NCBI GenBank assembly: GCA_009776735.1
Contig: WRNG01000004.1
Span: 1-43,914 of the forward strand
Direction: 5' to 3'
Source of the DNA: Dehalococcoidia bacterium
Lineage (GTDB): Bacteria; Chloroflexota; Dehalococcoidia; Dehalococcoidales; UBA1222
Length of the DNA stretch: 43,914 bases
How positions within the stretch are numbered: position 1 is the first letter of the stretch; each line of letters begins with the position of its first letter. The position numbers and the translations under genes are program-made. Under the pieces are notes generated by a model that was not told the origin of the DNA, did not search any database, and worked only from the letters and a program-made list of their open reading frames with translations. This document shows, piece after piece, positions 2,382 through 10,672 of this stretch.

Positions 2382-3140
2382 CTATTCCAAAGAGTCCTTT
2401 ATTGACCCATCTCCAGCTTTTTCATCAGCAGCTATAGCTAAACGGTTTTTTACCAGCAGGTCATAGTCTTGCAAAACTGTGTGGCAGTCACCGTCGGCAG
2501 TAATTAAACCTTTATTCATGATCATAACCCGCGAACAAAGAGCTTGCACCATTTCTAAGTCATGGGAAACAATCAGTTTGGTTTGCGGCAATCCGCGTAA
2601 CAGCTTAATTAGTTGCCATTTACCAACGGGATCAAGACTAGAACTTGGTTCATCAAACACCAGTAGTGGTGGAGACATCGCCAGTACTGTTGCTATGGCA
2701 ATACGTCGTTTTTCTCCCAGACTTAAGTGGTGTGGCGAACGTTGTTCGTACCCACCCATACCCACCGCTCTTAGCGCTTGTTGTACCACACAAAGCACTT
2801 CGGCCTCTTTCATCCCCAAATTAAGGGGACCAAAAGCCACATCATCAAAAACCGTGGGGGAAAACAGTTGATCGTCAGGATTCTGAAAAACCATCCCTAT
2901 CTGCCGCCTGACAGTTTTGAAGCTCTTTTTCCGTACCACTTGCCCCAACACTCGCACAACCCCACAATGCGACTGTAATAACCCGTTCAAATGAAGCAAC
3001 AAGGTTGATTTACCGGCCCCATTAGGCCCGATAAGCGCCACACACTCCCCTTCGTGAATACTCAGACTTACCCCACGAAGCGCCGGTTGTCCATCGGGAT
3101 AGGAGAACTTGAGGTTTTCAATTGCAAGAACTTCAGCCAC
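2382..3140 (-). CDS. cbiO: Energy-coupling factor ABC transporter ATP-binding protein (CbiO/NikO)
   Basis: GPNGAGKST Walker A, LSLGEKRRIAIATVLAMSPPLLVFDEPSSSLDP; next to cbiQ/cbiM. Confidence 0.92.
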   Translation of the reverse strand: MAEVLAIENLKFSYPDGQPALRGVSLSIHEGECVALIGPNGAGKSTLLLHLNGLLQSHCGVVRVLGQVVRKKSFKTVRRQIGMVFQNPDDQLFSPTVFDDVAFGPLNLGMKEAEVLCVVQQALRAVGMGGYEQRSPHHLSLGEKRRIAIATVLAMSPPLLVFDEPSSSLDPVGKWQLIKLLRGLPQTKLIVSHDLEMVQALCSRVMIMNKGLITADGDCHTVLQDYDLLVKNRLAIAADEKAGDGSIKDSLE

Positions 3141-3924
3141 TGATGCTCCTCAACAGTAATGGAATCAAGACAATAACCGCTGATGCCACTAAAATGATCA
3201 AAAGATATACCACATCCACAAAGTGCAAACTGAGACGGTCAAAAAAACGGCTGTGTCCTTCAAATCCTCGCGCTAACATAGCTCCGTAAACTCGCTCTCC
3301 CCTCTCAAAACTACGGATAAACAAGGCTCCTACCATAAAACCTAGAGTACGGACATGAAGACGAATTCCCCCACCAAAAGAACGGCTATTGCGTGCCTGT
3401 GACAAATGCTCAGCCTCATCACTCAGCACAAAAACATAGCGGGACATGAAGCTCATCAGCATTATCATTATTCTGGGCATTTTAAGCTTTTCCAGCCCTT
3501 TTAACAGCTCTCCCATGCCAGTGGTTGCCGTAAGGCTTATTATGGACTGAATCGAAAGCCAAGCCTTACACATTATGTCTGCCGCAAGAAGGAGCCCTTC
3601 TCTCTTTATGCCAATATGCCAGTTCCATATATTCACCGCTCCAATTTCTGCTCCTTCTTTGAAAAAGGGCAGAAAAACCACCACTAAAAGAACGAATGGG
3701 ATTACTACTGATGAACGTTTGAGAACATAAGCAACAGGCACGCGTGACAGCAGTATCAAGCACACATTGAGAATTAAAAACAACCCGTATGCGAGCCACT
3801 CAGTTCTCGGCACTGCCACCACTGCAATCACCATCACCAACATTGCCAAAAATTTAACCCGCGGGTCCAGCTTATGGATAAAACTGCCTGTTTCGCGGTA
3901 TTGATCTAAAAAGTGGTATTTCAT
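3133..3924 (-). CDS. cbiQ: Energy-coupling factor transmembrane protein CbiQ/NikQ
   Basis: HKLDPRVKFLAMLVMV N-terminus, multiple TM segments, ARGFEGHSRFF motif. Confidence 0.9.
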   Translation of the reverse strand: MKYHFLDQYRETGSFIHKLDPRVKFLAMLVMVIAVVAVPRTEWLAYGLFLILNVCLILLSRVPVAYVLKRSSVVIPFVLLVVVFLPFFKEGAEIGAVNIWNWHIGIKREGLLLAADIMCKAWLSIQSIISLTATTGMGELLKGLEKLKMPRIMIMLMSFMSRYVFVLSDEAEHLSQARNSRSFGGGIRLHVRTLGFMVGALFIRSFERGERVYGAMLARGFEGHSRFFDRLSLHFVDVVYLLIILVASAVIVLIPLLLRSISG

Positions 3925-3929
3925 GCTAT

Positions 3930-4253
3930 CTAGCCATTATTTATTCTAGCAGTATCAGAAGGTGTTTTGGTATTGTTTTTTCTGGCAATTAGCCAAACCA
4001 AAGTAAAAGCCAACGCAAATACCAGAATCGTACCTATCCAACCAGCTAAAACACCTGCCACTGCTTCATTCTGAATCCCGGGGAAGAGATAGTCGGCAAT
4101 CAAAACAAAAGGAGGTTCTATAATCCGTTCTGTTAAATTATGATCTTCAACCACTCGTTCCAAACCATCCGGAGCCGCTGAGGCTAAAGGAGCAAACGTT
4201 GCTAGAAGTAGGCAAAAAGCGAAAGCTACCAGCCACCATTTCTTATTCTTCAT
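3930..4253 (-). CDS. PDGLE-domain (CbiN/NikN-like) small transport component
   Basis: MKNKKWWLVAFAFCLLLATFAPLASAAPDGLERV...; signal/TM, PDGLE motif, C-terminal TM; overlaps cbiM stop. Confidence 0.8.
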   Translation of the reverse strand: MKNKKWWLVAFAFCLLLATFAPLASAAPDGLERVVEDHNLTERIIEPPFVLIADYLFPGIQNEAVAGVLAGWIGTILVFALAFTLVWLIARKNNTKTPSDTARINNG

Positions 4254-4902
4254 CGGTCTGCCAACTTTCTTGTAAATCAAGTAAATCCGCTCTGGTTTTA
4301 CGCAATAGAGTCAGTGCGGCCACAGTTATTGCCCCTTCCAGTAAACCAATTATGGCATGCGTACCAAACATGGCTGGCAACACCACCCTTAAAGGAATAA
4401 CGTCAGAAATAACAATCTCCAGGGAACAAGCCACGGATGCCAATACAACCGAACACCAAGCTGCTGCGAAACTCAAAATTGTTTTGGTTCGAACATTGTT
4501 TTCAAAAAGCTTCAATCCCAATTGATATATTAAATAGGCTGCTCCCCCGCCGACAATACCCATATTGAAAATGTTGGCTCCCAGAGCTAAGATGCCTCCG
4601 TCTTGGAAAATAAAACACTGCACTATAAGCACCAGTGTAAGAATAATCAGTGTAGCCCAAGGTCCTAATAGGACAACACACAATGCCGCTCCCAAAAAAT
4701 GCCCTGACGTGCCACCAAAAACTATTGGCACATTGAGCATCTGCGCAGCAAAAATAAAAGCGGCCAGTACGCCCATCATCGGAATTTGCTTCTCGCCTAG
4801 TTTTTTCCCAACAACCCGTACAGCACCCGCAACTCCACCAGTGGATATCACCGCTGTGCCAACTAAAGTCCCCGCATTAAGTAAACCATCAGGAATATGC
4901 AT
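4243..4902 (-). CDS. cbiM: Cobalt/nickel ECF transporter substrate-binding subunit CbiM/NikM
   Basis: Diagnostic MHIPDGLL N-terminus (ATG at 4902), FGGTSGHFLGAAL. Confidence 0.93.
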   Translation of the reverse strand: MHIPDGLLNAGTLVGTAVISTGGVAGAVRVVGKKLGEKQIPMMGVLAAFIFAAQMLNVPIVFGGTSGHFLGAALCVVLLGPWATLIILTLVLIVQCFIFQDGGILALGANIFNMGIVGGGAAYLIYQLGLKLFENNVRTKTILSFAAAWCSVVLASVACSLEIVISDVIPLRVVLPAMFGTHAIIGLLEGAITVAALTLLRKTRADLLDLQESWQTDEE

Positions 4903-4934
4903 TCGTGTTATTTCGTACTTGCCATTGCTTGCAA

Positions 4935-4951
4935 TTGCTATTCTATTGCAA
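4935..4951. promoter_or_regulatory. Candidate Nur-type operator upstream of cbiM (TTGCTA-N5-TTGCAA)
   Basis: 33-49 nt upstream of cbiM ATG; sits within CTTGCAAT-N9-ATTGCAAG (4928-4952); same half-site as at the Fur-family gene. Confidence 0.55.
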
Positions 4952-4967
4952 GAACAAATCAAAATTT

Positions 4968-5387
4968 TTATGTGCATTCCTCACAACGACCAAAAATGGC
5001 CATGTGATTCAAATCAGCTCGAAAACGATATCTTTCTATAAGCATATCAGAAAGCGGAGCCAGTGCTGCCGCATCTAAATCAATCACATGACCACAAACA
5101 GAACAGACTAAGTGGTGATGGTGGTCATGTCCAGCACTATGGAAGCGCACTCTCCCATCACCCATATCGGTTTCCGCGACCAATCCCATTACCTTGAGTA
5201 ACTCCAGCGTCCGATATACCGTCGAGATATTTAGCCCAGCGTAATTGTGGCGTACCCCTTCGTATATTTCTTCAGCGCTAATATGCCCACTCGCTTCCTC
5301 AATCGCTTGAAGGATCATCAACCGCTGCGGAGTAATGCGATATCCCTTTTGGGCAAGACTAGCCAAAACATCTCGGTTAGGTATCAT
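4968..5387 (-). CDS. Fur-family metalloregulator, probably nickel-responsive (Nur-like)
   Basis: KGYRITPQRLMILQAIEEASGHISAEEIYEGV, GLNISTVYRTLELL, HSAGHDHHHHLVCSVCGHVIDLD, CEEC; divergent/adjacent metal transporter. Start at 5387 chosen (ORF opens at 5426). Confidence 0.88.
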   Translation of the reverse strand: MIPNRDVLASLAQKGYRITPQRLMILQAIEEASGHISAEEIYEGVRHNYAGLNISTVYRTLELLKVMGLVAETDMGDGRVRFHSAGHDHHHHLVCSVCGHVIDLDAAALAPLSDMLIERYRFRADLNHMAIFGRCEECT

Positions 5388-5397
5388 AATGAAAGGC

Positions 5398-5426
5398 ATT
5401 GTAGCAAGTATTCGCAGATATTGCAA
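5398..5426 (-). promoter_or_regulatory. Sigma70-like promoter of the Fur-family gene
   Basis: Minus strand TTGCAA - 17 nt - TACAAT; the -35 is one half-site of the 5421-5437 operator. Confidence 0.5.
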
Positions 5427-5444
5427 GTGTGTTGCAATATCTGC
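5414..5444. promoter_or_regulatory. Nur-type operator: 13-bp perfect inverted repeat GCAGATATTGCAA-GTGTG-TTGCAATATCTGC
   Basis: Read directly; core TTGCAA-N5-TTGCAA at 5421-5437. Confidence 0.65.
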
Positions 5445-5605
5445 TTGTCGCAGTATTGTTACTGTTCAAAGATATTTAATTTTCAACTGTTTAATGTCTC
5501 ACGCCTATTTGTCTATGGACTTTTAGCTGTGGCCGTTGTAGAATGGTAGCGCTGTCCAATGGAGCAACCCCCACTATGAAAGTATTGTTATCGAAGATGG
5601 ATTTT

Positions 5606-5659: not shown

Positions 5660-5929
5660 ATGCAATCCAGTCTAATTGGAAAAATTGAAAAAGCCACCCG
5701 TTATTCTCAAGAACCTGACCGCATCACCTTTAACGAATTCAAAGTAACATTTCGCGGAAATAACAGCGATCATACTGTCTGTTATACCGATAAAAAATGG
5801 CTTTGTACCTGTAGCTTCTTTCATGATCGTGGGCTTTGTGCTCATACAATGGCTTTGGAGAAAGTACTGGAGCGTATGCTTCCCTCCGAAGCTCTCACCA
5901 ATTTCAACGCAACTGAAATACCTGTTTAA
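5660..5929 (+). CDS. Small SWIM zinc-finger domain protein
   Basis: 89 aa; WLCTCSFFHDRGLCAHTMALEKVL = CxCx(n)CxH SWIM motif; AGGAGGTG SD. Confidence 0.75.
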   Translation: MQSSLIGKIEKATRYSQEPDRITFNEFKVTFRGNNSDHTVCYTDKKWLCTCSFFHDRGLCAHTMALEKVLERMLPSEALTNFNATEIPV

Positions 5930-10468: not shown

Positions 10469-10536
10469 AACGTTATTATAACAGACTAATCCGTTACGAT
10501 TTTGCATCAGTTAGCGGCCTGTGTTATATTTGTTTC

Positions 10537-10622
10537 ACCGCTGGGGGTGCTTATTGCTGAGAGTTTTCTTATGAAACAACCCTTGTGGCCTGATCTCGTT
10601 AATCCGAGCGGAGGTAAGCGGA
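10537..10622 (+). promoter_or_regulatory. TPP riboswitch (THI box) aptamer
   Basis: CCGCTGGGGGTGCTTATTGCTGAGAG...ACCCTTGTGGCCTGATCTCGTTAATCCGAGCGGAGGTAAGCGG: CTGAGA and CCTGAT..GTTAAT.C.AGCG.AGG conserved blocks; P1 CCGCT/AGCGG; upstream of thiC. Confidence 0.9.
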
Positions 10623-10672
10623 AGTGTTGTCCGACATTTCCCTGCCGGCATTTTTTACTAGGGGGAAAGTGT

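Follow-up and report, generated by a model that had tools for sequence, protein, structure and literature searches.

Nur, the nickel-linked member of the Fur family, has been described from Streptomyces (PMC3919588, PMC7055735). Its operator was given as tTGCaa-N5-ttGCAA (PMC3919588), the same form as was given in a first-pass annotation of the present DNA, and the crystallographic Ni site of the protein was regarded in a review as a possible crystallisation artefact (PMC7055735). A box predicted for Zur in Desulfovibrio, ATGCAAC-N3-GTTGCAT, was linked with zinc on the basis of its genomic context (PMC545781) and has the same form, so the form of a box alone does not name the metal. No report of Nur in Chloroflexota was found in the literature searched. 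Dehalococcoidia, a mostly uncultured class, use nickel hydrogenases and CO dehydrogenase, and the occurrence of Nur across the class names its likely nickel switch.

The window, which is the whole stretch of 43,914 nt analysed here, is contig C4 of a 1.21-Mb assembly. The assembly is 83% complete, and gene absences in this genome are provisional for that reason. A gene for a Fur-family regulator and the genes of an ECF-type metal importer lie side by side in the window, and their positions and those of the predicted control elements were collected in Table 1. Homology, operator sequence and layout, promoter overlap and gene linkage were computed. The best explanation of the locus, with a probability of roughly 0.84, is a self-contained nickel homeostasis module, consisting of a Nur-type nickel-responsive repressor and a NikMNQO importer under its control. 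The bacterium, which is uncultured, probably carries its nickel-sensing repressor beside its nickel importer.

Table 1. Features of the regulator-importer locus in the window, and Fur-family paralogs at CO dehydrogenase genes of related genomes
Feature	Position	Strand	Remarks
nikO (CbiO family), ECF ATPase	2382..3140	-	TIGR01166 211.2 bits, TIGR04521 235.9 bits
nikQ (CbiQ family), ECF T component	3133..3924	-	TIGR02454 159.5 bits (cut-off 111.8)
nikN-like PDGLE-domain subunit, 107 aa, ATG at 4253	3930..4253	-	PF13190 49.3 bits (cut-off 27)
nikM (CbiM family), ECF metal-binding membrane subunit, starts MHIPDG	4243..4902	-	PF01891 200.6 bits
cbiM/nikM operator, box two, TTGCCATTGCTTGCAA, TTGCAA-N4-TGGCAA, one mismatch	4919..4934	-	abuts 4935-4951
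cbiM/nikM operator, box one, TTGCAA-N5-TAGCAA	4935..4951	-	position kept in relatives
Nur-type Fur-family regulator, 139 aa, ATG at 5387	4968..5387	-	PF01475 99 bits
-10 element TACAAT of regulator promoter	5398..5403	-	
-35 element TTGCAA, the promoter-proximal half-site	5421..5426	-	17 bp to TACAAT
Strong operator box TTGCAA-N5-TTGCAA, core of 31-bp palindrome	5421..5437	-	kept in four same-family relatives
Degenerate partner box CTGCGA-CAAG-CAGATA, abuts strong box	5438..5453	-	fits order-wide layout 0/10/16/26(27)
Fur-family paralog beside CO dehydrogenase catalytic gene	L211 (G008:C30:25300-26900); G025:C1:812926; G046:C2:69083; G015:C43:12612; G051:C94:492		

The regulator was compared with known Fur-family proteins by sequence, structure and phylogeny. 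Its best PDB match by sequence was 3EYY, the Nur of S. coelicolor (122.5 bits), followed by PerR (79.3 bits), and a profile of 20 orthologs matched 3EYY with 145 bits against 115. For the AlphaFold model (pLDDT 82), 3EYY also ranked first, with a TM of 0.83-0.87, an rmsd of 2.0 and 45% identity. A tree of 86 proteins was then read for its clade split only, as built from 139 columns with some long outgroup rows including the FurB/Zur reference, and with reference rows from printed PDB alignments, some of them without their ends. The regulator fell into a 61-member clade with 3EYY and Streptomyces proteins (support 100/97), and the PerR, Fur and Zur references lay outside this clade together with the other Fur-family paralogs of the order. 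The alignment with Nur, Zur and Fur proposed in the first-pass annotation thus placed the regulator with Nur and apart from Fur, Zur and PerR. Grouping with Zur failed, the FurB/Zur reference standing outside the clade on a long branch. The closest relatives with named loci came from Dehalococcoidia and other Chloroflexota assemblies, then from Streptomyces and other Actinobacteria.

An iron or peroxide sensor (Fur or PerR), to which the transporter gene would be a bystander, could be read from the PF01475 domain match and from weak NCBIfam matches to Fur and PerR, but the latter scored far under the cut-off (94 of 220 and 87 of 180 bits). Moreover, the regulator lay outside the Fur and PerR rows of the tree, its box does not have the 7-1-7 form, and no iron or peroxide gene was seen adjoining it in this genome, which left this reading extremely unlikely.

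Two further kinds of Fur-family protein were observed in the order. A second group of Nur-like regulators (L197, L198, L231, L245, L246) was recognised, some of them with the same kind of box and with importers. A different paralog adjoined the catalytic gene of CO dehydrogenase in at least five genomes (Table 1), which suggests metal- or redox-linked control of that enzyme.

For the metal site, we took the M-site ligands of Nur to be H33, H86, H88 and H90 and those of its Ni site to be H70, H72 and H126. H36, H91 and H93 of the regulator (Nur H33, H88 and H90) were invariant, and H129 (Nur H126) was present in all rows of the Nur clade, one residue off the histidine of Fur, PerR and Zur. Nur H86 corresponded to D89, and H70/H72 to E73/D75, so only H126 of the three Ni-site ligands was kept; the comparison of metal-site residues, put forward earlier as a check on nickel sensing, showed the residues of Nur kept at H33, H88, H90 and H126 and changed at H70/H72 and H86. 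The positions of H70/H72 were E/D in Dehalococcoidia and H/H or Q/D in some other Chloroflexota. In the second group of regulators, they were K/E or K/K, not E/D (two rows aligned). Given the possible artefact at the Ni site of Nur, this site carries little weight as a criterion, and the E73/D75 change was not taken as disproof. H84 (Nur H81) is a histidine where Fur and PerR carry E or D, and it could be the fourth M-site ligand. As judged from sequence, the regulator is a member of the Nur clade, and strict identity of its metal site with that of Streptomyces Nur is not claimed.

Upstream of the regulator gene, the perfect 31-bp palindrome described in the first-pass annotation (5414-5444) was confirmed as an exact 13-5-13 inverted repeat, GCAGATATTGCAA-GTGTG-TTGCAATATCTGC. 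No longer short-spaced perfect inverted repeat occurred in the window, and in 40 Markov resamples the longest arm was 12, an arm of 13 being reached in 0 of 40. The outer arms, GCAGATA/TATCTGC, were not conserved among the closest relatives, which ruled out the 31-bp symmetry as the operator unit. The palindrome was also ruled out as a terminator by the absence of a T-run after it. Its core is an exact match to the Nur operator (5421-5437), and the second copy (4935-4951), noted earlier just upstream of cbiM, was found to be real, with one mismatch.

The N5 motif was weakly above chance in the window (9 matches with at most 2 mismatches, 5.4 expected) and in marginal excess in the genome (8 matches with at most one mismatch, 5 in the control). 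Its significance comes from conservation across the order, given that the excess in this single genome is marginal. One-mismatch N5/N4 sites elsewhere in the genome, on C2, C5, C20, C21, C24, C32, C49, C52, C58, C68 and C72 and at C4:34591, were mostly intragenic and their counts were near control, and none was claimed as a target. One and the same repetitive protein end of 787 aa occurs on both C68 and C72 of this assembly (G000; L146, L147), and it is probably a repeat or was duplicated in the assembly.

Among 61 genomes of the order, exact TTGCAA-N4/5-TTGCAA gave 31 matches compared with 4 in the control, mostly at the regulator locus. Around the named relatives (at most one mismatch), the N4 spacer was found 26 times, any other spacer 0-1 times, and the reversed control gave 0. 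The usual operator of the order consists of two abutting TTGCAA-N4-TTGCAA boxes with half-sites at 0/10/16/26, located before regulator and transporter alike. In the family of the window, one box has slipped to N5, and the regulator promoters of four relatives from this family (G001, G003, G006, G008) carry TTGCAA-N5-TTGCAA; the N5 spacer assumed earlier thus holds for the family, and N4 is the usual spacer of the order. Of 288 layouts, 0/10/16/26 came first in two separate regions. Its mean score was 18.0 of 24 in 45 sequences from upstream of the regulator (shuffles at most 12.8) and 17.3 in 20 sequences from the stretch separating regulator and nikM (shuffles at most 12.2), with shuffles run on 27 of the 288 layouts. 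The half-site was taken from the window, and the layout scan is the independent part of this result.

A 32-bp double-box pattern (at most 2 mismatches) was matched in 37 of 156 genomes of the order, and the reversed control gave 0. Of 30 matches read as loci, 28 lay at the regulator or a second-group relative, most of them adjoining an importer, and the other two stood before operons that encode binding proteins of the NikA/CntA type together with NikBC-type permeases (NikABC-type). The pattern was built from regulator promoters, so that their recovery is partly by construction. This does not apply to the two NikABC-type operons, or to the lack of matches at other places and in the control. 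The N5 sites of the window are unmatched by this N4 pattern. The motif scan proposed in the first-pass annotation yielded little above control in the genome alone, and succeeded order-wide, at the regulator and metal transporters. With its 32 bp, the paired operator is specific enough to find nickel-uptake genes in raw genomes, and new nickel transporters are predicted from it. Double Nur-type boxes were recorded before operons combining a methyltransferase with NikABC-type transporters, distant from the regulator gene (L264:733-10000, L265:862-3352). At the regulator loci of Actinobacteria and other Chloroflexota, no TTGCAA-N-TTGCAA (at most one mismatch) was found nearby.

These results also bear on the palindrome as a chance repeat or a transcription terminator instead of an operator, a reading that draws on the near-control count of the N5 motif in this genome. 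It is refuted by the order-wide conservation, and the fixed layout, the fixed distance to the promoter and the missing T-run speak against it as well, leaving a practically negligible probability. The natural variants of this system, in spacer (N4 to N5) and in ligands (H/H to E/D), are ready-made tests of how Fur-family proteins choose metal and DNA.

Seen against the order-wide layout, both sites of the window are pairs of which one box each had been noticed earlier and the partners, 4919-4934 and 5438-5453, had been missed. The cbiM/nikM site (4919-4951) was taken as a double box because box two directly abuts box one. The regulator site spans 5421-5453 with a degenerate distal box, and this partner was placed by position, being weak in this genome.

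The half-site nearest to the regulator coincides with its -35 element, in line with the overlap suggested earlier. In 27 of 32 regulator promoters, a -10 element sharing 4 or more of its 6 bases with TATAAT followed the last half-site after exactly 17 bp, and other spacings reached at most 7. Because the half-site is the -35 element, a bound regulator would obstruct its own promoter, and this supports autoregulation. With 10 nt separating the -10 and the ATG, the regulator mRNA is probably leaderless. Divergent from the regulator, a small protein with a SWIM-like CxC...CxH pattern and no Pfam match is encoded at 5660-5929 (+), and it is conserved near the regulator in several relatives. Elsewhere in the window, a TPP riboswitch (10533-10633, +, 54.4 bits) precedes a ThiC-like gene.

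The M, N, Q and O subunits of a NikMNQO importer were found in a single operon. The M subunit matched TtNikM2 structures with 103 bits compared with 46 bits for Rhodobacter CbiM, and in a tree of CbiM proteins it lay on the NikM side, apart from the B12-linked cobalt CbiM of the order. CbiC, the marker of corrin-ring synthesis, was above cut-off in 6 of 61 genomes and in 0 of 10 in the family of the window. The 28 CbiM genes of the 61 genomes divided cleanly into 6 from CbiC genomes and 22 others. The six start with MHIAEG, form one separate clade and have no box nearby; five of them adjoin CbiC, and in the sixth (G031) CbiM and CbiC both lie at contig ends. The other 22, nearly all starting with MHIPDG, were near this regulator (20), a second-group relative (1) or a box (1).

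ECF systems of the CbiMNQO/NikMNQO family can move either metal, and Pfam and NCBIfam name the parts of the operon cobalt transporters, so a cobalt sensor beside a true CbiMNQO cobalt importer was considered. A cobalt CbiMNQO would be linked to corrin-ring synthesis or a cobalamin riboswitch; however, CbiC is absent from the family, the cobalt CbiM of the order forms its own boxless clade beside CbiC, and no Rfam cobalamin riboswitch was found in the window, by which riboswitch control of the transporter was rejected. Elsewhere in the genome, a cobalamin riboswitch precedes CobT and CobU-, CobS- and BtuFCD-like genes, a corrinoid salvage operon (CobU-, CobS- and BtuFCD-like genes assigned by eye, CobT not). 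Cobalt seems to enter as corrinoid, which leaves nickel for NikMNQO. The NiCoT-type and HypA partners of orthologs and the presence of a [NiFe] hydrogenase in the genome also favour nickel, and cobalt sensing was judged very unlikely. The earlier view of the transporter as a nickel rather than a cobalt uptake system agreed with the grouping of its M subunit, which makes nickel the probable substrate.

The importers downstream of the regulator were then counted at 56 loci, of which one NikL-type and one ZnuABC-like locus belong to second-group regulators. NikMNQO was found at 23, NikMN fusions at 3, NikL-type CbiMQO at 3, NiCoT-type permeases at 6, ZnuABC-like operons at 13, FmdE with a FecBCD-type transporter at 2, HypA at 1 and none of these at 5. 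Relatives keep sensor and site, whereas their importers differ, and some of these importers may be nickel transporters not yet recognised as such. ZnuABC-like operons behind the regulator (L182, L183, L186, L177, L178, L050) in several cases include a methyltransferase, and the binding protein of the regulator-linked operons bears an unusual CPGHFD motif; these operons are candidate nickel importers. In two genomes from the family of the window (L189, L190), an FmdE-family protein with a FecBCD-type ABC transporter was observed under the Nur-type regulator.

The ZnuABC-like partner, found in 12 of 54 orthologs (about a fifth), was the main reason to keep zinc in play; on this view, a zinc sensor acting as a Zur would have arisen inside the Nur clade, and the linked transporters would follow zinc. 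Zn, Mn or Fe is the usual substrate of this transporter family, the box predicted for Desulfovibrio Zur shares half-site and spacing with the box found here (PMC545781), and the regulator, as the only Fur-family protein found in this 83% complete genome, might serve several metals. Nevertheless, nickel/cobalt genes (CbiMNQO, NiCoT, NikL-type, HypA) are more often the partner, and the tree excludes the Zur reference, although that reference is long-branched. In two genomes (G044, G016), a separate Zur-like paralog adjoins its own ZnuA, which shares only 21-22% identity with the regulator-linked kind, and one operon (L027) joins NiCoT and a ZnuA-like gene. The zinc reading was thus held to be improbable. 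There is about an even chance that the regulator heads an exchangeable nickel-importer slot, filled by at least six importers, in which the ZnuABC-like (12 of 54) and FmdE/FecBCD-type (2) systems are misannotated nickel transporters. If so, two transporters now annotated for zinc/manganese or iron would move nickel.

Taken together, gene linkage and operator position support the regulator as a likely controller of nickel uptake. The idea of the first-pass annotation that it senses nickel was largely supported through the Nur clade, the NikM2 grouping and the operator, with nickel specificity as a deduction from these. Ni(II) would be the effector and binding would repress, presumably with two dimers per double site. 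With enough nickel, Ni-bound dimers would occupy the paired TTGCAA boxes before regulator and nikM. The box over the -35 would then block RNA polymerase, so that the regulator represses itself, and the double box at nikM would shut off uptake. When nickel falls, the dimers would leave, uptake would rise, and the metal would supply the [NiFe] hydrogenase, which this genome encodes together with its small subunit and its protease. The genome (83% complete) yielded no CO dehydrogenase, and the roughly 250 bp upstream of the [NiFe] hydrogenase contained no box. The E73/D75 residues, the ZnuABC-like partners, the Zur-like form of the box and the boxless hydrogenase upstream count against a nickel-sensing Nur.

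Compared with known systems, the regulator resembles S. coelicolor Nur (3EYY) in clade, sequence (45% identity), fold, TTGCAA half-sites and link to nickel uptake, and in the M-site residues H33, H88 and H90 and the histidine in the register of H126. Differently from S. coelicolor Nur, H70/H72 are E/D and H86 is D, the operator consists of two paired boxes, for which N4 is the common spacer in the order, and the regulator would control an ECF importer next to its own gene, whereas S. coelicolor Nur controls nikABCDE and sodF, which lie elsewhere. The importer shares with NikMNQO/NikMN2 ECF systems (TtNikM2, PDB 4M58) a single operon that holds the M, PDGLE-type N, Q and O subunits, and its M subunit is nearer to NikM2 than to Rhodobacter CbiM. 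Unlike the TtNikM2 system, it has a separate small N subunit, and Nur-type control takes the place of NikR. The predicted Desulfovibrio Zur box, compared by box only, has the same half-site and N5 spacing. As in the NikR-controlled nik operons of deltaproteobacteria, a gene for a nickel repressor is combined with NikMNQO and an operator in its promoter (PMC545781), but NikR belongs to the ribbon-helix-helix proteins and has GTGTTAC-N13/14-GTAACAC sites, and a Fur-family protein fills this role here.
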